A stretch of 51,049 bases of DNA. Source: Chrysochromulina tobinii. Taxonomy: Eukaryota > Haptophyta > Prymnesiales > Chrysochromulinaceae. This document shows positions 1,425-24,665 of the stretch, piece after piece (positions within the stretch are counted from its first letter, which is position 1; every line of letters begins with the position of its first letter). The notes beneath the pieces are model-generated. The model was given only the letters and a program-made list of their open reading frames with translations. It did no database searches and was not told where the DNA came from. A program made the translations under genes and the position numbers. The DNA lies in the NCBI GenBank assembly GCA_001275005.1, contig JWZX01003175.1, positions 1 through 51,049 of the forward strand, in the 5' to 3' direction.

Positions 1425-4400
1425 TCAGGCGCCCTCGAGCGCCTCGATCGCTGTCTTCACTGCGGACACAACCTTCGACGCCTCCGCCTCGTCCCGTGGG
1501 CCATCGCGGCGCCACCGATCGTCGTCGAGGTGGCGCGCTGCATTCGCCCAAATGCGGAGCGAGTGCAGCCGATCTTTCAGGTCGGTCCGCATGCCACACT
1601 CGCGACGCCAATAGTTGATGCGCTCCTCAAAGCCCTCGGGCGCCAACGCCGCCCTTCCGGCATAGATGGCGTCGAGTCGAGACATCACGCTGCTGAACGC
1701 GAGCAGCATGTTGTCCTTGATGCCCTTGTGCGCATCGGAGCCCTTGCGCATCTCACGCACCTGCAGCGAGAGCGGCGTGGGCACGTAGCATGCCGCCGAG
1801 CTCGCGGGCTGCTCCGAGCTTGAAAGCACCGAGCCGTCGAGCGCGCCGCGGCCGGTGCCAGTGCTCCCATCGTCATCAGCCAGGCTCGTCAGCGTTGCCA
1901 GCGCGGTGGCTACCGTGAGCCTCTTCCGCACACTGCCGTGGCACAAACCCGACGCAGCAGACCGGACGACATCCTTGATCGCCACCGCCACGTGCGGCGG
2001 CCAGCCAGCCTCGGCATCGGCGAGCTTCACGGCATCGATGTCGGGGAAATCGAGCTCGAATGACTCCTCGCAATTGTCAATCATGTTGAGAGGCGATCGG
2101 CCAGTGAATGCTACAAGCAGTGTGATGCCCAGCGCCCAGCCATCGGTCGCTGACGAATACTCGCGTCCCTGGACGACCCCCGGGTCGAGATACCCGCGGG
2201 TCAGGTAGAGCGCATTCGACGCGCTCTTCATCTTCGATGCCTCGGGGTCGGCATCCATCTTGGCGAAGCCCGTGTCTGCGAGGTAGGCGTTGAGCTCGTC
2301 GTCGAGCAGAATGTTCTCCGGCTTGAAGTCGCGATGGACGACGGCGCCCTTGCCGCCAGGCACCGGCGTGTGCAGATAGAGCAGCGCGTCGGTCGCCTGC
2401 TGCAGGATGCGCAGGCGCTGGTGCCAAATCAGAGGGCTCAGCGACGCACCGAGGCCGAGGCGGCGCAGGTGCTCGGGGTCGGCCTCTTTTGGCCACAGCC
2501 GATCGGCGAAGCTGCCGCCGCGCATCAGCGGGAAGACGAGGCACGGCGCCTCGTGCTCAAGATAGTAGCCGAGCAGCGGCAGCAGGTGTGGGTGGCTGCA
2601 CTGCTGCAGCACATTCACCTCGCGCTGCAGATCGGCGAGATCGTGCACGCCCGACTTGGCGCGCTTGACGGCGACGGGCTTGTGGCGCAGCCACAGCGGC
2701 AGGCCCGCGGGCGGCAGCGACGGCAGCGCATCCGCGGTGAAGACGCGGCCGTAGCCGCCGCTGCCGATGAGCCTCTGCTCTCCAAAGCCGTCCGTCGCCG
2801 CCGTAAGCTCGGCGAGGGTGAGGGCGACGGCCGCAGGCGGCGCCGAGGGAGCCTCCGGGGCCACCGATGCTGGGTCCTCTTCTGCGGATGCTGAGCCTGC
2901 GGCAGGAGGCGACTGTGTGACCTCCAGCAGTGACAGCTTCGACAGGCTGGCTTGCATCATCTCCGACGCGTGCTTGCGACGCAGCTTCTGGCTCTCCTGC
3001 TTGCGCTTCTTGTGCAAGCGCTCGCGCATCGCCCTCGCCTCCGCCAACACACCCTCGCTCGCGCGCGCGTGGTGCTCCTCGATCGCACCAATCAGGCCCT
3101 CGTACTGCGAAGCCGCCATGGCCACACGCAGCGCCTCGTCAGCGGTGGCAGAAGGAGCGGGACCCACGACGCCCTCGTCGCCAGCTGGCACCGCCACCTC
3201 GGCGCTGCCACTCGCGGCCGCTGACGCACTCGTTAATGGCGCTCTCGCCTTGCTCGCCCCTGTCGGCTTGGCTTTGGCTTTCTTGCTCGCTTTCTTCTTC
3301 GGCGCCTGCTGCTTGTGCGCCCCCTCCGCCTCCTCCTCAGCCAGCAGAGCCGCAGCGGCAAGCTCAGCTGCCCGCTCGGCTGCCGCACGCTCCGCAATCG
3401 ACACCGGAGTGGCCGCAGCGATGGTCGCAGGTGGGTGCGTGCGTGCGAAGCGCCTGTAGCGCAGGAACGTTGCGATGGCGGTGTGGCCTTGGGCCTCTGC
3501 AACATCGAGGGCTGTGCCATTAGGCGATCGAAAGTCAGTGCGTGCGCCAGCATGCACGAGCAGCTTGACGATGTCGATCGAGCCCGCGAGACAAGCAGCG
3601 ATCAAAGGCGTGACGCCGTCGCTGGCTGCCTGGTCGACGGCGGCGTGGGCGGCGAGCAGCAGCTGCACGCAGTCGCCGTGGCCTTTGATGCAGGCGGCGT
3701 ACAGAGGCGTGGCGCCGTCGCTGGCTGCCTGGTCGACGACGGCGTGGGCGGCGAGCAGCTGCTGCACGCAGTCGCCGTGGCCTTTGATGCAGGCGGCGCT
3801 CAGAGGCGAGTTGCCGTTGCTGGCTGCCTTGTCGACGGCGGCGTGGGCGGCGAGCAGCAGATGCAAGCAGCTTCCGTGGCCTTTGATGCAGGCGGCGTAC
3901 AGAGGCGTGTCGCCGTCGCGGTCTGCCTGGTCGACGGCGGCGTGGGCGGCGAGCAGCAGCTGTACGCAGTCGCCGTCGCCTCTGTCGCAGGCGACGATCA
4001 GAGGCGTGGCGCCGTTGCGGTCTGCCTGGTCGACGATGGCGTGGGCGGCGAGCAGCAGCTGCACGCAGTCGCCGTGGCCTCTGTCGCAGGCGACGAGCAA
4101 AGGCGTGGCGCCGTCGCTGGCTGCCTGGTCGACGGCGGCGTGGGCGGCGAGCAGCAGCTGCACGCAGTCGCCGTGGCCTCCGTCGCAGGCAACGTACAGA
4201 GGCGTGGCGCCGTTGCGAGCTGCCTGGTCGACGATAGCGTGGGCGGCGAGCAGCAGCTGCACGCAGTCGCCGTGGCCTCTGTCACAGGCGGCGTACAGAG
4301 GCGTGGCGCCGTTGCGGTCTGCGTGGTCGACGATGGCGTGGGCGGCGAGCAGCAGCTGCACGCAGTCGCCGTGACCTCTGTCACAGGCGGCGTACAGAGG

Positions 4401-4904
4401 CGTGGCGCCGTTGCTGGCTGCCTGGTCGACGACGGCATGGGCGGCGAGCAGCAGCTGTACGCAGTCGCCGTCGCCTCTGTCGCAGGCGACGATCAGAGGC
4501 GTGATGCCGTTGCTGGCTGCCTGGTCGACGGCGGCGTGGGCGGCGAGCAGCAGCTGCACGCAGTCGCCGTGGCCTGTGATGCAGGCAACGTACAAAGGCG
4601 TGGCGCCGTCGCTGGCTGCCTGGTCGACGATGGCGTGGGCGGAGAGCAGCAGCTGCACGCAGTCGCCGTGGCCTTTGATGCAGGCGGCGTGCAAAGGCGT
4701 GGCGCCGTCGCTGTCTGCCTGGTCGACGGCGGCGTGGGCGGCGAGCAGCAGCCTCGTGCATTTAGGGTGACCAGTCTCACATGCAATACGCAGGCAAAGG
4801 TGGAGGTGGGCCGCTTCTTTCACGCTGTCGACGAGGCCCACAGCCTTGGCCTCGTCGCCGCGCCGGAGCGCGTCGACGATCGCGTCCAGGGTCACGATGC
4901 TCAT
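1425..4904 (-). CDS. ankyrin-repeat protein kinase with HEPN-like C-terminal segment
   Basis: A single-exon gene of about 1159 residues. The start is placed at MSIVTLDAIVDALRRGDE because repeats begin soon after; the frame is open further up but carries no domain there. Residues about 40-490 are ankyrin repeats, twelve of them nearly identical 33-residue units with consensus GATPLYAAC and GDCVQLLLAAHA. An Ala/Lys-rich linker follows. The kinase domain, about 700-1015, has the glycine loop GSGGYG, lysine in VAVKR, HRDFKPEN and DTGFA (DTG instead of DFG; the Asp is kept), then GYLDPG and a DGWALG helix. It resembles the IRAK/receptor-like kinase branch. The last 100 residues contain LRIWANAARH, which resembles the motif of DUF4145-type HEPN domains. 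Known: such kinases phosphorylate Ser/Thr. Inferred: the ankyrins select the target. No membrane segment is seen. Confidence 0.85.
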   Translation of the reverse strand: MSIVTLDAIVDALRRGDEAKAVGLVDSVKEAAHLHLCLRIACETGHPKCTRLLLAAHAAVDQADSDGATPLHAACIKGHGDCVQLLLSAHAIVDQAASDGATPLYVACITGHGDCVQLLLAAHAAVDQAASNGITPLIVACDRGDGDCVQLLLAAHAVVDQAASNGATPLYAACDRGHGDCVQLLLAAHAIVDHADRNGATPLYAACDRGHGDCVQLLLAAHAIVDQAARNGATPLYVACDGGHGDCVQLLLAAHAAVDQAASDGATPLLVACDRGHGDCVQLLLAAHAIVDQADRNGATPLIVACDRGDGDCVQLLLAAHAAVDQADRDGDTPLYAACIKGHGSCLHLLLAAHAAVDKAASNGNSPLSAACIKGHGDCVQQLLAAHAVVDQAASDGATPLYAACIKGHGDCVQLLLAAHAAVDQAASDGVTPLIAACLAGSIDIVKLLVHAGARTDFRSPNGTALDVAEAQGHTAIATFLRYRRFARTHPPATIAAATPVSIAERAAAERAAELAAAALLAEEEAEGAHKQQAPKKKASKKAKAKPTGASKARAPLTSASAAASGSAEVAVPAGDEGVVGPAPSATADEALRVAMAASQYEGLIGAIEEHHARASEGVLAEARAMRERLHKKRKQESQKLRRKHASEMMQASLSKLSLLEVTQSPPAAGSASAEEDPASVAPEAPSAPPAAVALTLAELTAATDGFGEQRLIGSGGYGRVFTADALPSLPPAGLPLWLRHKPVAVKRAKSGVHDLADLQREVNVLQQCSHPHLLPLLGYYLEHEAPCLVFPLMRGGSFADRLWPKEADPEHLRRLGLGASLSPLIWHQRLRILQQATDALLYLHTPVPGGKGAVVHRDFKPENILLDDELNAYLADTGFAKMDADPEASKMKSASNALYLTRGYLDPGVVQGREYSSATDGWALGITLLVAFTGRSPLNMIDNCEESFELDFPDIDAVKLADAEAGWPPHVAVAIKDVVRSAASGLCHGSVRKRLTVATALATLTSLADDDGSTGTGRGALDGSVLSSSEQPASSAACYVPTPLSLQVREMRKGSDAHKGIKDNMLLAFSSVMSRLDAIYAGRAALAPEGFEERINYWRRECGMRTDLKDRLHSLRIWANAARHLDDDRWRRDGPRDEAEASKVVSAVKTAIEALEGA
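3600..4760 (-). repeat. 99-bp tandem array encoding ankyrin repeats
   Basis: About twelve consecutive 99-bp units lie inside the kinase gene, each encoding one 33-residue ankyrin repeat. They differ mainly at a few codons (A/I/V before VDQA; ASD/ASN/DRN; CIKGHG/CDRGHG). Identity at DNA level is high enough that the antisense strand also stays open. This points to recent unequal crossing over or gene conversion. Flanking repeats at both ends are more divergent, as expected for array edges. Confidence 0.9.
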
Positions 4905-5227
4905 AGGCCTGAGCTCTTCGGTCGTCTCTTCGATCGCAAAGGGCCCCTCGTGTCGTGCGTCATGACTCCCCTTGCTGCCGTGCGAAGCCCGATATGGTAA
5001 TATGCATGCATGCTCGGCCGGACAGGAAAGTTTGCAGCCAACAAAATGTGTGAACGTTAACACACGCGACAGGAACTTCGTTGCGACTTTCGCGTAATCC
5101 TCACACAGAATTTGAGCCTGCCCGCTCCAGCCTCCACGCGAGCACGCCACACGATCAGAGCCACCCGACCCCACAGGAGCACCGGACGATACTGTAATTT
5201 GTAAAGTAAGCCAACGCGTCCCCACTC
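4905..5227. other. intergenic region, presumed kinase promoter
   Basis: This lies between the stop of the UvrC-UvrB gene and the start of the kinase gene, both on the minus strand. It should carry the terminator of the first and the promoter of the second. I see no clear TATA box or repeat. Confidence 0.4.
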
Positions 5228-8200
5228 TCACACCCCAAAGTCCGACGCATTGACGAGCGTCTGAGCTTCGCGCGGAGCCTCTCCGTCCGTACGGAGCCTC
5301 TCTGTGCGCACGATCCACGCGGGAGCGGCGCGTGCGGCCGGGGAGTCGAACAGCGAGGACACCGACACAATGAGCCCTCGCTTGTCGTCGTCATCCTCCT
5401 CCTCCGCTGCCTGCGCCGGCGCCGGCTCCTTCACCTCCTCCTCCTCCTTCCCGTACGCCACACGTCCGTTGCCGCCGCCGGCCTGCTGATTGCCGCTGAT
5501 TGCTGTTGATTGCTGCTTGGCTCGCAGCTTGGTCCGTTGGCGGCGCGCCTTGGCTTCCTCGAGCAGATCGAGCATCGCCCCACTCCCTTCGCCATTGGTG
5601 ACGATCGGCATCGGCTCGAGGCCGTAGCGTTCGTTGTGAGCCTGCTGCACTGCGCGCCGGCGGTCGGTCTCGTCAATGGCGCGCTTCATCGAGCCGGTCA
5701 CGCGGTCGGCAAAGAGCAGCGCCGTGCCACGTACGTGGCGCGCTGCACGCCCGATGGTCTGGATCAACGCTGTACTTGAGCGTAGGAAGCCCTCCTTGTC
5801 CGCGTCGAGCACCGCCACCAAGCTCACCTGATGAGGCGGCCCAGCTCTCAGTGCGATCTCAGAGGCGATCAGCGTCACTCAGCGTCACTCAGCCGCATTC
5901 CAAGGGTAATCAGCGTGGTAATCAGCGCCCATCAGCGCCCATTAGAGGCCATCAGAGGTCGTCAGAGGCCATCAGAGGCCATCAGCGCACCTCCGGCAAG
6001 TCAAGCCCCTCCCGTAGCAAGTTGACGCCCACGAGCACGCTCAGCTCGCCATTCCGCAGCGAGCGCAGCAGACGCACACGCTCGAGCGGTTTCGTGCCGG
6101 AGTGCATGTGCGCCGCCGCTAGCCCATGCTCGCGCAGTGTCGAGGCAAGCCGCTCCGCACTCTCGCGGGTGAGCACTGTGGCGAGCGTACGTTCGCCTAA
6201 TTTGGCACGCAGGGACGCCTCTGCGATGAGCTCGTCGAGCTGTGCCGCGCGTGGGCGGATCTGCAGAGGCGAGCAGAACTCATCAGAGGTCATCAGAGGC
6301 CATCAGAGGCCATCAGAGGCCATCATGAGGTCATCATAGGCCATCAGAGGCCATCAGAGGCCATCAGAGGCCATCAGAGGCTCATATGCGAGCGCACCTC
6401 CACCTGTGGGTCCACAATGTGCGTTGGTCGCAGCACAAGCTCTGGTAGCGACCCCATCGCCTCCTCACCCCCCCTCCTCCCCCTCCTCCCCCCCCGCCTC
6501 GCTCGCGCCGTACCGAGCGCCCCTTGCATGCGCGAGCTCGAACGCTCCTGGCGTGGCCGACACAAAGACCGCCGACGGTACGCGAGCCCAAAACTCATCG
6601 TGCGTGAGGGGGCGGTTATCGAGCGCCGAGGGCAGCCGGAAGCCATGCTCGACGAGGCAGAGCTTTCGGCGCCGATCGGCCGGGTACATGGCGCGTAGCT
6701 GCAGGGGCGCGCGACTCATCAGCAATTCGGAGATCGGGTTGGGGATGGGGGGGTGGGATGGGGGGGTGGGATGGGGGGTTGGGATGGGAGTTTGGGGTTG
6801 GGGTTGAGGTTGGGGTTGGGGTTGGGGTTGAGGTTGGGGTTGGGTCAGGTATTGGGGGGGATTGTCCATCAGCGTCACTCGAGCCGCACCTGTGGCAGCG
6901 CCACGTGTGACTCGTCCACAAGCAACAGATACTCCGGGGGGAAGTAGTCCAGCAAGGTCAGGGGGGCGGCACCGGCCGGTCGACCAGCGAGATGACGCGA
7001 GTAATTCTCGAGGCCCTGGGCCAAGCAGAGGCAACCAGAGGCTAATTAGACGCAATCTAGTTGGCCATCAGCGCCCCATCAGAGGCAATCAGAGGCAATC
7101 ATAAGTCACTCGGAGTGAGCGCCCCATCAAAAGTCACGGGCATCCCACCTTGCAGTATCCCTTGTGAACGAAATCCTCAAGGTCGGCACACACCCTCCCC
7201 TCAAGACGAGTCGCCTCGGCCAGCCGGCCATCCGCCCGGAGCGAGGCAAGACGAGCATCCAGCTCCGCCTTGACGTCGTGCAGCACACGCGCGCGCTCGC
7301 TCTCGGGCAGCACGTGGTGCGAGGCGGGGAAGAGGACGAGCTCGTCGGCGGCGCTTGAGACGGCGCTTGGGACGGCGCCGGCGCCGTCCGCCGCCGCAGT
7401 CGCTTCCGCCACGGCAAGCACCGCTGCGATTTCGTCTTCCTCGTCGATCAGAGCGCTTGTGGGGGCTTCGGAGATTGGATCTCGCATGATGGCCATTACC
7501 TGGACGGCGCCGCCCCCCGCCACCTCCGCCATCGGCGCTACCTGTGGAGACGTGTCCGCCTGCTGTGAATGGTCCGCTGTCCGTGAATGGTCCGCTGCCC
7601 GTGAATGGTCCGCTGTCCGTGAATGGTCCGCTGGCTGTGAATGGTCCGCTTGCTGGGGGAACTGCAATGCGAGCCGCACACGCACCGCCACCTCGGAGGC
7701 GACCGGATGCACACGCAGCTCATAGTCCGTGCTACCGCCACCTCCCACCGCCGCCAGGCTATACTCGCCGCGCTCGGGCTTAGCACGCGTGTCGGCCACA
7801 GGTTCATACTGCAAGCGCTGCAGCGCCGCGAGTAAGTGCGTGAGGGACGGGAGCGTGTGGCCCACACGCAGCGGAAGGGCTGCCTCCTGGTACTGGTCAG
7901 GGACTCCCAGCCCGTAGATGCAAGAGACTGAGGCGACGACCACCTGTGGGGCGATACGGGGCGTGCTCAGAGAGGCCATCAGAGAGGTCATCAGAGAGGT
8001 CGTCAGAGAGGTCATCAGATGAGAGGTCATCAGAGGAGCGGTCATCAGAGAAGGATCACGCAGAGCACTCACCACGTCAGTGCGCGAGAGCAGCGCCGCG
8101 GTGGCGGCATGACGAAGCCGGTCGATGTCTTCATTCACCGAGGCCGTCTTCTGCAAGTACACGTCAGCGGTGGGCTGATAGGACTCTGGCCTGTAGTAGT

Positions 8201-10666
8201 CATAATAGGACACGAAGTACTCGACGGCGTTGTGGGGAAAGAAGCCGCGCAGCTCCGCCCAGAGCTGAGCCGCGAGCACCTGCATGCAATGAGAGAGGCC
8301 ATCAGTGGCCGTCAGAGGCCATCCTCAGGTACGGGGCGCCGTGATGAGCACCTTGTTGGGCGCAAGGACGAGGGTCGGCCTGCCGGTGGTCGCAATGAGC
8401 TGTGCCATCGCAAAGGTCTTCCCCGTGCCCGTAGCCCCTTTGAGGACAAGACGCCGTGGACCCACCTTGGGCGCCGCGAGGGACGTAGCAAGGCGCTCGA
8501 CCACTCCCCGCTGCTCAGCAGTCGGTGGCCAGATCGAGCGGAGATCAAACGACCGATGGGCGCGAAGGTCGTCTCGCCCAACGAAGCTCTCTACCGCCTC
8601 TCGCTTCGCCTCTCGCGCCGCCTCGACGACACCCGCGTCGACCTCTTCGAAGGCCGCGAGCGTCTCCGCAGATAGGGACGGCACCGACGACTTGAGCGAC
8701 GCTGTCGGCGACGGCGTGAGCAAAGGGGCTGGCGTGGGCGGCAGCAACGGCGACAGCAACGGCGCGTCGGTGAGGCCACCCATGATGTCGTCGAGACTCG
8801 AGGGCGCCGTCGTGGGCGCCGGCTCGCGCGGCCGCCTCGTCAGTTGAATCTCATGCAGGAAGCGCAGCGCCGTGCTGAGCGTCGCCCGCAGCGCTGCCTC
8901 GTCGGCGGCCTCCTCGGTGTCCAGCTGGTGCCCGCGGATCCCGAGCCGGTGCGCCATCAACCGGCGCTGCCGCTTGGCGCTCGCCGCAATGGCACCCGCG
9001 GTCGTCGAGGCCGTCGTCCAGCGTGGGTCTGTCGGCAGCCGCAGGACCTGTGTGACCAGCAGCGGGGGGGGGGTGGTGAGTATGGAGGAGGAGGGGGAGG
9101 GGGGCGTGGGTCTGTCCGCAGCCGCAGCACCGGCGGCAGAGGGCGTGAGAGAGGAATGCGACCGGTAGAGGGCGTCGTGCCGAGCGCGCCCTGGCTCGCC
9201 TTGGCGCGTTGCAGGCCGGCCACGATGGAGGTTGCAAGGCGCCTCCCGATGCCCGGTACGCGCCGAAGCGCCTCCACATCCGCCTCACAAAGGGCGGCAT
9301 ACGTCCCGAAATGGTCAAACAGCGCCGCACGCCGCGTCGCTCCGATGCCACTCGTCCCGCCGAGGGCCGTGAGCGCCGACTCGAGCGCAGCCGCCTCTCG
9401 GAGCGCCCGGTGGCCTTCGAGCGCCGTGGCGTGCGCCTCGTCCCGCGCGCGGCGCAGCAGCAGCAGTGGCTTCGATTCGGCGCCACCGGCCGGTGAGCGC
9501 CACGGCATGCCGCTACCAATGCCGCTACCAACGGCGCTACCAACGGCGCTACCAACGGCGGACGTTGCGTCCGCACTCGCCTCGTGGTCGATTGCATGCT
9601 TCACACTCGCCTCGTGGTCGATTGCATGCTTCACACTCGCCTCGTGGTCGGCGTTCTCGGGGGTGAGCCACAGCAAGCTTGCCGACTCGACGCCATCACC
9701 GCCACCGCCCTGATTTCTGGCGGCCGCGCCAATCGTGTGGAATCCATACACGGTCTCGTTCCCCTTTGCCAGAGCGATTAAGGGCACGTGGCGAGCCTCA
9801 GTGGTCGCCAGCGCCGAGCGTGCGGCGTGGAGCTGCCCTTTGCCGCCGTCGATGAGGATGAGATGCGGCAGCGGACGGGACGTTGGCGAGCGTGACCATG
9901 CCGTGGATGCCGCCCCATCATCATCCTCAAGCTCGCCGCCCCCCGTACCCCCCACCTTCCCACACCCGACCTGCGGTGCTGGCGCGAAACGGCGCCGAAG
10001 GCCTTCGACAAGTGCCGCGCAGTCGTCGGCCGCGGGTGCCCTCTGGATCGGCCAGCGCTGGTGGCGAGCAGGCGCGGGCTCGCCGTCGACGAGCACGGCG
10101 CTCGAGACCACAGTGTACTCGCCGCCAAAGTGCGAAACGTCGAACGCCTCGAGCAGCCGCGGCGGGCCGTCGAGCCCGAGCCAAGCTTGCACCGCCTCGA
10201 GCGCCTCGACACGGCGACGCGCGGCGAGAGCACCGGCGAGCATGGCGCGCACGGCCGCACCGCTGAGGCCGAGGCGCACTGGAGCGTCCACTGCGCCGGC
10301 ACGCTCGTTGAGTGCGACGGGCAGCACCGCTCTCGTGGCCTCCGCGCTGCGGAGCCGCCGCAGACATTTGGCCGCGAGCCTCGCCGAGTCTGCTGAAAAT
10401 GGGCCGTGAACAGTGCCGTCCAGAGCGCCACCGGATGACCGGCGCGTGCGCACAATTCCATCCTCATCTACGGTCAAGTAGAGCTCCTCCGGCAGATCCG
10501 TCAATCTCGGGTTGGCAGCCTCGAGCTCGGCTTGTAAGATGAGAAGCTCAGCACTCTGCGCGTGCTGCGCATGGTGAATCTGGCGCACCGCGGACGTGGC
10601 GCGAGGAACCGAAAAACGTAGGCGCATCGCGAGGCCCGTGCTCGCAATGCAGAGCACAGCGAGCAT
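5228..10666 (-). CDS. uvrC/uvrB: UvrC (C-terminal half)-UvrB fusion, probably plastid-targeted excision-repair protein
   Basis: Eight exons (10666-9131, 9047-8352, 8279-8073, 7943-7149, 7015-6890, 6698-6398, 6260-5991, 5827-5228), about 1509 residues, all introns GT-AG and phase 0. The first ATG gives [16 protein letters not shown], a signal peptide, then a basic transit-like stretch. Exon 1 is the UvrC RNase H-like nuclease ([25 protein letters not shown]: catalytic Asp and His kept) plus two helix-hairpin-helices ([17 protein letters not shown]). Exons 2-8 are Uvr[89 protein letters not shown]. Absent: GIY-YIG and UVR motifs of UvrC, and the C-terminal UVR of UvrB. Exon 6 has one surplus base, probably in a poly-G run (6468-6495). 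In bacteria UvrB verifies damage and UvrC cuts on both sides; only the second-site nuclease is here. Two separate genes are the alternative. Confidence 0.82.
5828..5990 (-). other. intron 7 of the UvrC-UvrB gene, minisatellite-filled
   Basis: GT-AG, 163 bp, phase 0, restoring [18 protein letters not shown]. It holds TGATGGCCTC units near the donor and TGATGGGCGC and GAGTGACGCT variants further on. Donor GTGCGCT and the first exon bases GTGAGCT are similar. Confidence 0.8.
6261..6397 (-). other. intron 6 of the UvrC-UvrB gene, minisatellite-filled
   Basis: GT-AG, 137 bp. Donor GAG|GTGCGC and acceptor CTGCAG|ATCCGC restore [16 protein letters not shown], which aligns with UvrB without a gap. 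Nearly the whole intron is made of TGATGGCCTC units, about ten copies. Confidence 0.75.
6699..6889 (-). other. intron 5 of the UvrC-UvrB gene, G-rich on the template strand
   Basis: GT-AG, 191 bp, phase 0, restoring [15 protein letters not shown]. The plus strand, which is the template, carries runs of GGGTTGGG/GGTTGAGG and TGGGATGGGGGG over about 6735-6845. These could fold as G-quadruplexes. No TGATGGCC units are seen here. Confidence 0.75.
7016..7148 (-). other. intron 4 of the UvrC-UvrB gene, minisatellite-bearing
   Basis: GT-AG, 133 bp, phase 0, restoring [13 protein letters not shown], which matches UvrB. The middle has TGATTGCCTC and TGATGGGGCGC variants of the repeat. Confidence 0.75.
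7944..8072 (-). other. intron 3 of the UvrC-UvrB gene, minisatellite-filled
   Basis: GT-AG, 129 bp, phase 0, restoring TDV|VVVASVS. It is built mainly of units like TGATGACCTC, a variant of the TGATGGCCTC repeat. The donor is GTGAGTGC and the acceptor CCCCACAG. Confidence 0.75.
8280..8351 (-). other. intron 2 of the UvrC-UvrB gene
   Basis: GT-AG, 72 bp, phase 0, between APNK and VLAAQL of UvrB. Donor AAG|GTGCTC and acceptor CAG|GTGCTC match, so the repeat offset equals the intron length. It carries two or three TGATGGCCTC units. Confidence 0.75.
9048..9130 (-). other. intron 1 of the UvrC-UvrB gene, a tandem duplication
   Basis: GT-AG, 83 bp, phase 0, joining the UvrC and UvrB parts. The sequence after the donor (GTGCTGCGGCTGC, then GACAGACCCACGC) recurs, with two changes, straight after the acceptor (GTCCTGCGGCTGC...). 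The offset of this repeat is 83 bp, the same as the intron length. The middle is pyrimidine-rich. Confidence 0.7.
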
Positions 10667-10926
10667 GGTGATGGCGGGCCGCCGTCCGCGAAGATGCGCC
10701 TTCACGGGCACAAAGATTCCTGGAAGGAACTCTCGACGACGCTTGGAGACCTAGGTCAACGGCACACTTGGAGGAGAGGGGTCTCCTTGTGGAACGTTGT
10801 GAGTTTTGGGCGGGTGTCGGCGACTGTTTCGTCCTTTCACGCGGGCAGCATGTTCTCCGCTGCACTCCGTCCGCTCTTTGCTCAGGGGGCTGTGTCCGAT
10901 CGAGCACACGCGTGGCGCTCCCGCAC

Positions 10927-12774
10927 ATGAGTCGGCGGCAATCCGTTGCGGGAAGCAATCTGGGCTTCTCTCGCGAGTTGGCCAGTCTCTTTTTTGAGGC
11001 AGACGTGGAGGGCGACAGAGAGGTCACGTTTGGCGAGTTTTCGAGTCGGATAGTGCCAACCAAGATGCTCGCAACCTCTTCCAAGGAAGAAATCAGAGAG
11101 CTCTTCGACAGCATCGACACGGACAAGTCTGGTAAGATCTCCATGAACGAGCTCTTCCTGTGGACACTCAAGTACGCGCAAGAGGAAACGGGTACCGGGA
11201 TAGATTCCGTCTTCCGTCGGTACGACAAATCGGGCAGGGGCGCGTTGACCATCACTGAATTCTGCACAGCTGCCGAGGAGCTCGGCTTTGGAGCAGCTGC
11301 GCACGACGTCTTCATAGAGCTCGATCCGGATGGTTCGGGGCAGGTCAGCTACTCAGAGATGAAGATAATGCTCGGACAGCGCTTGCTTTCGCCCATCGCC
11401 AAGCGGTTCATACGAGCAATGGCGTTCGACGCGGCGCAAAGAGCGGTGGAAGTGGATACTACAGGTTGGACATTGCGCCCCGAGAGCAAAGAGTCCATCC
11501 GAGAGCAAGTGCTCGAGAAGCTCAAGAGTTGCGCTCCTGCTCGAGCGAGCGACCTTTACCGCGCCATGAGCGGCGGTACCAACTTTATCCTCGGACGACA
11601 CAACTTCCACTTGGCCATGTCGCGAATTGGGATGCCGCCGAATCAGGAGGCGCTCGAAAAGGAACTTTACGACGACATAGACGGCGACGGCAGCGGCATC
11701 ATTGGCGACAGCGAATTTGTGGCTTGGCTGGCCGGTGGCGCCAGTCGCAGAGCGCGTGCTCGGAAGCTGACACTGCGCACGGGCCTTCTCGCGAATGCTC
11801 CCAAGTGGACGGGCGAGTGGGACGCAAACCGTCTGCGCCACGCGCTGCAGCTCGCGTTGATCCGAGCGGCCATCGCGCCCATCGATCTCATCCGCGGGTA
11901 CGCAGGCGATGACGCGAGCTTCTCAAAACAAGAGTTCCTCTCGATGCTCAAGCGACTCGTCAACGACCCGGGTGATCTATGGGAGACGCTCCGCGACGTG
12001 GTGATCGAGCTCTTCAACACGATCGCGGGTAGTAATAAGTCGGTCGACGTGACGGAATTTCAGTCGTGGCTGCAGATGGGATGGATGGAGGCCAAGCGGG
12101 ACGCAACGGGCTCCACGATCGAGGGCACGGGCCCCCTGGACGAACGGGTGGTCGAGACGGCGATCGAGCATTCCGCAGCGGCCGCCCTGAAGGTGGCGTC
12201 TTCGGCAACGACGGCCGTGCAGCGCCTGCAGCGGAGCGCCGTCTCGAGCACCCGCAGTGCACCCACTCTCATCGGCAAGCGCCATGTTGAGCAGCTCAAC
12301 GCGTTGATGCAGCCATTGCTGCCTCGCACGTGGCCCGCAAAAGAGGGCGACCATTCGTTTGCAAGGCGGTGGGCCTACCGGCCCAAAGCCTGCCTCGTTG
12401 ACAAAAGGCCGGTCCCCGTTCCGGATCCGCCGTTACCGCCGTGGCGGCTCACGCGCGCACGGATTGAAGGTCGCCACTTTCTCGTGCGCGAAGAATCCGA
12501 GGGCGTGCGGCCGCTGCGACGGGGCGAAGCCGCCCGCAAGCGAGCCGTCTGCTTTTACCAGGAGCACCGGCCGGCGCCATCCTGGGCGCCATCCCCGATG
12601 CATCGCACACCTCCATCGCGGCCGCTTGGGCAGCCAGGCGTTTTCGACGCTCGGACCTCGCTCCCGTTTGCCGGCGTGTCGAGGACGGTGATGACCGTGC
12701 AGGAAGTCGTGATGAAGGACCTCGCTGACGTGCGCGTGGCTGATTTCCTCGGGAGGACAAAGAACACGCGTTAG
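10927..12774 (+). CDS. multi-EF-hand calcium-binding protein
   Basis: Single exon, 615 residues. The ATG at MSRRQSVAG is chosen because the open frame above it lacks domain content. Clear EF-hand loops are seen at about residues 61-78 (DTDKSGKISMNE), 98-112 (DKSGRGALTITE), 133-144 (DPDGSGQVSYSE) and 251-264 (DGDGSGIIGDSE). A degenerate hand lies near 25-38, and there is a further weak hand-like segment around 340-390. The C-terminal 200 residues have no domain I recognise and are rich in Arg and Pro. No membrane segment or kinase domain is seen, so it is not a CDPK; a calcium sensor or a cytoskeletal/flagellar EF-hand protein are both possible. It is divergent from the UvrC-UvrB gene with 260 bp between starts. 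Confidence 0.82.
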   Translation: MSRRQSVAGSNLGFSRELASLFFEADVEGDREVTFGEFSSRIVPTKMLATSSKEEIRELFDSIDTDKSGKISMNELFLWTLKYAQEETGTGIDSVFRRYDKSGRGALTITEFCTAAEELGFGAAAHDVFIELDPDGSGQVSYSEMKIMLGQRLLSPIAKRFIRAMAFDAAQRAVEVDTTGWTLRPESKESIREQVLEKLKSCAPARASDLYRAMSGGTNFILGRHNFHLAMSRIGMPPNQEALEKELYDDIDGDGSGIIGDSEFVAWLAGGASRRARARKLTLRTGLLANAPKWTGEWDANRLRHALQLALIRAAIAPIDLIRGYAGDDASFSKQEFLSMLKRLVNDPGDLWETLRDVVIELFNTIAGSNKSVDVTEFQSWLQMGWMEAKRDATGSTIEGTGPLDERVVETAIEHSAAAALKVASSATTAVQRLQRSAVSSTRSAPTLIGKRHVEQLNALMQPLLPRTWPAKEGDHSFARRWAYRPKACLVDKRPVPVPDPPLPPWRLTRARIEGRHFLVREESEGVRPLRRGEAARKRAVCFYQEHRPAPSWAPSPMHRTPPSRPLGQPGVFDARTSLPFAGVSRTVMTVQEVVMKDLADVRVADFLGRTKNTR

Positions 12775-23835: not shown

Positions 23836-24665
23836 ATGCTCTCTGCGTCCTTCATGCCTCGCACCGCCGCGCCGGCGTTCGCTACGTCTGCTCTGTCTCG
23901 CTCGACGCTCCGCATGGACTCGCGCGACGACCTGGCTGATCGCATCAACAAGGCGGTGAGAGCATCGCCCACACTCCTGCCGATGCTTGCCCGCTTTCTA
24001 AATCCTGAGCGCGCATCCGCGAGCGCCATCACCACTGACTCGAGCTCGCATCCCGTGCCATGCACGCGCAGGTCCCCGTGCTGTCGGACACCGTCGCAAA
24101 TCCGACCTACCTCACCACCGCCGGCAACTTTGATCCGAACGCCTTCGTGCAGTCCCTGCCAGGCATCTCCGGCCCGCTTGGCTTCTTCGACCCCGCGGGC
24201 TTTTGCGCGAGCAGCAATGGCGCCAACGGCGCGGCGACCGAAGGCAAGGTGCGCTTCTACCGCGAGGTGGAGGTGAAGCACGCCCGTGTTGCAATGCTCG
24301 CGGCCTTCGGCTTCCCCGTCGCTGAGCAATGGCATCCGCTCTTCGCCACCGACGACGCGCCGTCCTTCTCGGCCTTCCAGCAGACGCCGCTGCAGACCTT
24401 TTGGCCCGTGGTGGTCGCTGTCATCGCCGTCATCGAGATCTTCTCCATCTTCCCGGCCTTCGAGGACCCCAACATCGAGGGCTGGGCCATCAAGTCGACG
24501 CACACCGCGGGCGACTTCGGCTTCGATCCGCTCGGTCTCAAGCCCAAGGAGCCCAAGGAGCTGATGGAGATGCAGACCAAGGAGCTCAACAACGGGCGCC
24601 TCGCCATGATCGCAATTGCGGGCATGGTGGTGCAGGAGGCCGTCACCGGCCAGAAGCTCTTCTGA
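23836..24665 (+). CDS. light-harvesting chlorophyll a/c-binding protein
   Basis: Two exons, 23836-23955 and 24072-24665, 237 residues. Exon 1 gives MLSASFMPRTAAPAF, a short targeting region, and SRSTLRMDSRDDLADRINKA. Exon 2 continues with VPVLSDTVANPTYL. The three thylakoid helices are near residues 101-120 (REVEVKHARVAMLAAFGF), 149-170 (FWPVVVAVIAVIEIFSIF) and 208-230 (ELNNGRLAMIAIAGMVVQE). The E..H.R and E.NNGR patterns in helices 1 and 3 are the chlorophyll-binding ion pairs of the LHC family. GDFGFDPLGL before helix 3 is typical of chlorophyll a/c proteins of haptophytes and stramenopiles. It harvests light for the photosystems in a complex plastid. The intron is 116 bp, phase 0. Confidence 0.9.
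23956..24071 (+). other. intron of the light-harvesting gene
   Basis: GT-AG, 116 bp, phase 0: donor GCG|GTGAGAGC, acceptor CGCGCAG|GTCCCC. It has a branch-like CTAAATCCTGA near 23998. It has none of the TGATGGCC repeat. Confidence 0.75.

Follow-up and report, generated by a model that had tools for sequence, protein, structure and literature searches.

In a 51,049-nucleotide contig of the haptophyte Chrysochromulina tobinii (JWZX01003175.1), referred to here as the window, the 5′-incision half of UvrC and a UvrB helicase are encoded as one fused gene product, a conclusion that is established from reading frames and protein alignments and confirmed in related sequences. The fusion suggests a stripped-down DNA repair enzyme whose source may be the ancestor of the chloroplast. 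The reading that we favor, and consider probable, is that of a nuclear-encoded protein with the order targeting-like N terminus, RNase H and helix–hairpin–helix (HhH) domains, linker, and UvrB without domain 4, which would act as a UvrA-independent repair nuclease that makes the 5′ nick only.

Translation and inspection of the reading frames on the minus strand, from 10666 to 5228, gave eight exons of 1536, 696, 207, 795, 126, 301, 270, and 600 nucleotides separated by GT–AG introns, the splicing of which is inferred. The frames of the predicted exons place all junctions in phase 0, and only exon 6 has a length that is not a multiple of three, as had been stated in the preliminary description of this locus. 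Exon 1 (9131..10666), open from the ATG at 10666, encodes 512 residues comprising an N-terminal extension, the UvrC RNase H (5′ incision) endonuclease domain (9752..10186), and an HhH DNA-binding domain (9209..9355, residues 438–486 of the exon). Predicted intron 1 (9048..9130, 83 nucleotides, GT–AG) separates it from exon 2 (8352..9047), in which a conserved linker (LRLPTDPRW...) is followed by UvrB from about 8564, including the Walker A motif GATGTGKT at 8438–8415. The β-hairpin region of UvrB lies in exon 3 (8073..8279), with FVSYYDYY at 8216–8193, and exon 4 (7149..7943) holds the end of domain 1a, a degenerate domain 2 with low-complexity inserts, and the start of domain 1b. The DESHV, SATPG, and LLREGLD motif regions are found in exon 5 (6890..7015), exon 6 (6398..6698), and exon 7 (5991..6260), respectively, and exon 8 (5228..5827) contains the GRAAR helicase motif, the UvrB signature PF12344 (5716–5600), and a C terminus without the UVR domain 4 that closes with a TGA ending at 5228. 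All of these features are on the minus strand. The 3′ end of exon 6 was set at 6398 by homology, the related proteins P0074 and P0170 reading DPTIEIRPRG and DPRVEVRPRG at a point where the window fits only as DPQVE/IRPR (slash, exon junction). The introns at 8072–7944, 7148–7016, 6397–6261, and 5990–5828 contain many short repeats around TGATGGCCTC, several with a 10-bp period; this sequence occurs 9 times on the plus strand and 11 times on the minus strand of the window. Two tandem repeats lie within coding sequence, one with an 18-bp unit at 7650–7554, in the region for UvrB domain 2, and one with a 30-bp unit at 9650–9574, in the UvrC half.

Pfam searches of exon 1 returned the UvrC RNase H domain (PF08459, 1.9e-26), which was also located by the search of the organism's own genome, and HHH_5 (PF14520, 1.7e-10). 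In a PDB alignment, the FDVSH, IDGGKGQ, and RDEAH motifs of the window line up with UvrC 2nrt; we take these motifs to correspond to Asp399, Asp466, and His538 of the E. coli enzyme. RDEAH is replaced by RDAAH in the related proteins P0011 and P0170, with the histidine retained. The UvrC nuclease/HhH half named in the preliminary description is therefore upheld by both domain matches and aligned catalytic motifs. The remainder of UvrC is missing: exon 1 matches a profile of 146 UvrC homologues only at positions 373–609 of 626, the GIY-YIG 3′ endonuclease is absent from exon 1 by Pfam as well as by the extent of this match, and the UVR motif of UvrC falls outside the matched part, with no PF02151 in exon 1 or P0170. 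When the N-terminal region was compared with the UvrC segment that follows GIY-YIG (HGPF versus FGPY), a profile score of 20.1 was obtained, with five shuffled sequences scoring 10.6–15.9, which is suggestive only of a leftover of that segment.

The UvrB part retains the Walker A motif, the helicase motifs, and PF12344 (ResIII, 9.1e-06 in exon 2; PF12344, 5.7e-17 in exon 8), together with the FVSYYDYY of the damage-sensing β-hairpin. Conservation was counted over a reference set of 183 columns with conservation of 95% or more among 214 bacterial UvrB sequences. Outside domains 2 and 4, 147 of 167 such columns are identical in all three of the window, P0074, and P0170. Domain 1a contributes 23 of 29, 11 of 14 (the hairpin), and 11 of 11 to this total, and the helicase parts that follow contribute 48 of 53 and 54 of 60. 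Within the UvrA-binding domain 2, half of the 10 conserved columns are kept in all three sequences, and in the UvrC-binding domain 4 (UVR), none of 6. The corresponding counts for P0172, which is not fused, are 25/29, 13/14, 11/11, 50/53, and 55/60, with 5/10 in domain 2 and 5/6 in domain 4. Domain 2 carries a stretch of arginines (R182, R193, and R211 in the numbering of P0173) that presumably contacts UvrA; R193 is lost from the window, P0074, and P0170, R182 is retained in P0074 and P0170, and R211 is retained in the window. Pfam, with a maximum E of 10, found neither UvrB_inter (PF17757) nor UVR (PF02151) in P0170 or in exons 4 and 8 of the window and found both in the bacterial UvrB proteins P0171 and P0173. 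The column count is the better guide to domain loss, because P0172 keeps its domain 4 columns without a PF02151 match. The diverged domain 2 may still fold. The preliminary description had spoken of a full UvrB, which does not hold, domain 4 being gone and domain 2 degenerate.

To place the fusion among other sequences, a protein search with exon 1 gave 73 proteins, a second search gave 98, and the best 120 of 8000 were taken from a third. The same domain order, in one uninterrupted frame over the window's exon 1/2 junction, is found in at least three divergent database proteins, P0011, P0074, and P0170, which are identical to the window at 389 of 742, 647 of 1127, and 735 of 1344 aligned residues, respectively (52–57%). 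All domains of the fusion are present in P0170 (1455 aa, 11 members), in which UvrC_RNaseH, HhH, and the UvrB domains share one uninterrupted frame; the same domains are joined in one frame in P0074 (1214 aa), the start of which is clipped within the RNase H domain. In P0011 (818 aa, 9 members, on a 68.7-kb contig), which has none of introns 1–3, the frame passes out of the UvrC half and reaches beyond the hairpin of UvrB. A much closer sequence, P0001 (96% identical to the window, 18 member sequences), continues in a single frame from exon 1 through intron 1 up to where exon 2 ends, and all 10 of the close homologues P0001–P0010 have the same N-terminal start residues as exon 1. All four aligned sequences retain the linker past the junction, with VKP/LYLPEDPKW in P0011, VNP/LVLPEDPRL in P0074, and VAP/LRLPTDPVW in P0170. 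In an AlphaFold model of P0011 (mean pLDDT 60.3), the RNase H and HhH domains are the best-predicted regions, and in structure comparison the predicted chain resembles both UvrC C-terminal half and UvrB structures. PF12344 and PF08459 each have one match in the whole assembly, both at the fusion locus. A bacterial fused locus was considered and rejected: among the best 80 of 90 loci, the only one matched from P0074 residue 1, in a Desulfobacteraceae metagenome-assembled genome (MAG), is an ordinary adjacent uvrB and uvrC, in that order, which is opposite to that of the fusion, and in two open frames. No viral relative of P0074 was found in a scan of viral_contigs with six peptide patterns, a weak scan because the patterns came mostly from variable parts.

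These relatives bear directly on whether two neighboring genes, one for the UvrC half and one for a UvrB starting at an ATG in exon 2, were merged by the gene model. Exon 2 does contain in-frame ATGs at 8957 and 8783, ahead of UvrB, so that the earlier statement that no plausible start lies between the parts has to be withdrawn, and intron 1 is a predicted one. If unspliced, 9 of 9 of the sequences P0002–P0010 fall out of frame with UvrB at the junction and terminate as proteins of 569–589 aa that comprise the UvrC half, which fits an intron at this position and would equally fit a UvrC half that ends alone. Against this, neither a stop nor an intron separates the halves in P0011, P0074, and P0170, and in P0001 the halves share one frame even with intron 1 unspliced. 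The conserved linker and the single-frame relatives make two separate genes or a chimeric contig very unlikely, and we regard the merging of two genes as extremely improbable. The preliminary proposal of a UvrC–UvrB fusion in one polypeptide thus stands, as far as sequence can establish it, and the contig chimera that it had named as a possible refutation is very unlikely. Whether the gene is intact in this alga is a separate matter. As assembled, exon 6 meets a TGA after 77 codons (6467–6465) in a G-rich tract, beyond which UvrB continues in another frame, and the break is either an assembly error or a real frameshift. Micro-introns were sought by eye in this exon; the single GTGAGG...CAG candidate gives the wrong frame, and no frame-restoring GT–AG micro-intron was seen. 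With the frame broken as assembled, the window copy may not be intact. Were the frameshift real, the locus would be a decaying pseudogene of a formerly functional fusion, a reading supported by the position of the stop ahead of the last helicase motifs. We consider it distinctly unlikely: assemblies are error-prone in G-rich, low-complexity sequence such as that holding the break, and exons 7 and 8 downstream have open frames with their LLREGLD and GRAAR motifs preserved.

Intron 1 itself is flanked by a 27-nucleotide direct repeat, identical at 25 of 27 positions, with one copy at the donor (9130–9104) and the other just past the acceptor (9047–9021). Because of this repeat and the absence of the intron from the three other lineages represented by P0011, P0074, and P0170, it appears to have been gained through local duplication.

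The contig is a nuclear contig of a plastid-bearing eukaryote, because predicted spliceosomal introns and a light-harvesting (LHC, PF00504) gene at 24153–24638 occur on it together; an algal nuclear genome had been proposed from the outset. Counting this gene, the assembly has 58 LHC matches. When the LHC gene was compared with solved sequences, the first seven of the best 60 of 658 were LHCI chains of the single entry 9vfj. Most of those ranked after them were antenna proteins of the fucoxanthin Chl a/c type and the like, and some had chlorophyll a-b names, from which we infer a red-lineage plastid in the host. By eye, the N terminus of the window protein has a short hydrophobic run, and the N termini of P0170 and P0172 resemble mitochondrial presequences just as much. 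The plastid, which the preliminary description had named as the probable site from a signal-peptide start, is a candidate location on this evidence. From open-frame reading, the downstream neighbor (1425–5390, minus strand) has ankyrin repeats and a C-terminal part that resembles a kinase, and the upstream neighbor (10672–12774, plus strand), arranged head to head, is an EF-hand-like protein.

Phylogenetic trees were constructed for both parts of the protein. The UvrB tree contained 55 rows and used 51 of 108 extracted loci, with P0011 left out; 18 near-duplicate loci and 2 loci of less than 550 aa had been excluded from a preliminary version. In this tree the fusions cluster with P0172 (100/99), and together they join eight cyanobacterial-phylum rows to make a group of 12 rows (100/96). 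When P0172 was removed, the fusions and the same number of cyanobacterial-phylum rows were recovered with support of 100/100. An alternative in which the 22 cyanobacterial-phylum rows group together without the fusions was not rejected by the AU test (p = 0.209), and long branches and odd composition were flagged in the UvrB trees. The cyanobacterial-phylum rows come from genomes assigned to the same phylum as a Gastranaerophilales MAG, and the eight rows were read as oxygenic cyanobacteria because they stand apart from the Gastranaerophilales rows. For the UvrC half, placement had support of 56/31, and grouping with nine cyanobacterial rows was not rejected (AU p = 0.381). The origin of each half had been left to phylogeny in the preliminary description, and the trees suggest a place for the UvrB part and leave the UvrC half unplaced. 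The best supported, not proven, view from these sequences is that the UvrB of the fusion would have cyanobacterial ancestry, presumably through the ancestor of the plastid; the half from UvrC may be of different origin. P0172 could represent a state that preceded the fusion.

The partners of a bacterial excision pathway were looked for in the organism's own assembly, a 53.15-Mb draft of 2253 contigs that was searched exon by exon, so that split genes can be missed. UvrA_DNA-bind had no match in this draft at E ≤ 0.1, and the uvrA model gave 10 matches (10 of 29 candidates scored), the best of 32.6 bits against a cut-off of 729.8, which are probably other ABC ATPases. The uvrC model gave three matches, all at the fusion locus and at model positions 362–573, with the N-terminal half of UvrC not found in the assembly, and the TRCF domain of Mfd had no match in the draft. 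As a positive control, gyrA was recovered; it scored 884 bits, and another stretch lay close by. RecA scored 42 and 25 bits only, and no bacterial-type RecA was found in the assembly; the draft or the lineage may lack some bacterial-type genes. Five GIY-YIG matches, four of them over the cut-off, occur elsewhere in the assembly, of which three frames (L003, L005, and L007) are SLX1-like by eye and two (L004 and L006) are of other kinds.

In bacteria, passages of PMC7835731 assign the 3′ cut to the N-terminal GIY-YIG domain of UvrC and the 5′ cut to its C-terminal domain and describe UvrB domain 4 as autoinhibitory, the ATPase being restrained until UvrA and single-stranded DNA relieve it. According to the relevant parts of two other reports, 3′ incision requires the UvrB-interacting domain of UvrC (PMC9426483), and UvrA is bound by UvrB domain 2 (PMC3025350). 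Excerpts of a study of UvrBC state that the complex can locate lesions in a UvrA-free manner by means of the UvrB hairpin, that UvrC expression raised the UV survival of a uvrA-deleted strain, that damaged duplex was incised by UvrBC only if already 3′-incised or bubbled, and that there was no evidence of damage excision by UvrBC alone (PMC5814901). As the parts and contacts for 3′ incision and the autoinhibitory domain are gone from the fusion, the UvrA-binding domain is eroded, and UvrA was not found in the draft, a UvrA-free mechanism limited to the 5′ nick appears most likely. The UvrB part would bind and verify the lesion through the β-hairpin, free of autoinhibition by domain 4, and the tethered RNase H domain would then nick on the 5′ side only. 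Action on pre-opened or pre-nicked DNA would be expected because bacterial UvrBC cuts only at a bubble or an existing 3′ nick, and other enzymes would then take out the damaged patch. The plastid would be the most likely site of this activity. Damage verification and one incision, as first proposed for this protein, agree with its domain content. More tentatively, the fusion may be a single-polypeptide, plastid-ancestor-derived excision nuclease, UvrA-independent and limited to the 5′ nick, that constitutes a minimal one-protein branch of nucleotide excision repair (NER) in a eukaryotic organelle.

Two other functions have to be weighed against a UvrA-independent repair nuclease. The fusion could supply UvrB and the 5′ nuclease to a full UvrABC-like pathway whose UvrA and GIY-YIG partner were missed, as a fragmented draft, exon-by-exon searches, the weak RecA matches, and the GIY-YIG matches elsewhere would allow. 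This we hold to be unlikely, since gyrA was easily found, UvrA_DNA-bind was not, the uvrA and uvrC models gave only weak matches or the fusion locus, the GIY-YIG frames look by eye SLX1-like or of other kinds, and the UVR domain and half of the conserved domain 2 columns are gone. A role outside bulky-lesion repair, as a structure-specific nuclease-helicase in organelle replication, transcription, or recombination, is a serious rival, albeit a doubtful one. It would be in keeping with the failure to find UvrA and GIY-YIG partners in the draft and with the cutting of bubbles and pre-nicked DNA by UvrBC in the portion of PMC5814901 concerned; conservation of the damage-verifying β-hairpin speaks against it.

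Both parts of the protein are clear relatives of UvrB and UvrC, and it is the architecture and the reduced domain set that, judged by sequence, are apparently new. The UvrB part shares helicase motifs, β-hairpin, and PF12344 with bacterial UvrB (P0074 reaching up to 594.7 bits against solved UvrB) but differs in standing behind a nuclease, in lacking domain 4, in having low-complexity inserts in a degenerate domain 2, and in being encoded by a nuclear gene with introns. Likewise, the UvrC part has the RNase H 5′ endonuclease, the HhH, and the catalytic motifs of the C-terminal half of bacterial UvrC (2nrt, 3c65, and 8b0q in the PDB), whereas the GIY-YIG nuclease, the Cys-rich region, and UVR are missing and it is covalently joined to UvrB. 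The UvrC homologue Cho is also a partial UvrC, but according to Table 1 of PMC1564403 it retains the GIY-YIG side, which is the opposite half. P0172 (1157 aa, with an organelle-like N terminus) resembles the fusions in its domain 2 and has a UvrB that is sister to theirs, with long branches meeting, but has no UvrC part and keeps most domain 4 columns. A plant plastid nucleoid protein combines plastid location with a uvrB/uvrC (UVR) motif; it is a motif protein only, neither a UvrB helicase nor a UvrC nuclease being described for it in the corresponding passage of PMC4624840. In the relevant part of a 2006 survey of GIY-YIG proteins, UvrC members comprised 8 archaeal and 310 bacterial sequences and none from eukaryotes (PMC1564403), and a 2020 review, in the section concerned, considered NER to be seemingly absent from plant organelles, with no UvrA, UvrB, or UvrC in flowering plants (PMC6981420). 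The preliminary description knew of no account of a UvrC–UvrB fusion, and none was found in open-licence PMC full text among the matches listed.

A conserved algal fusion of apparent cyanobacterial ancestry would show that the NER of the endosymbiont partly survives in another form. UvrA-free repair activity of UvrBC has been reported in E. coli and in vitro, in the passages of PMC5814901 that deal with it, and the algal fusion would be a natural test of whether UvrB and one nuclease can act in repair without UvrA.
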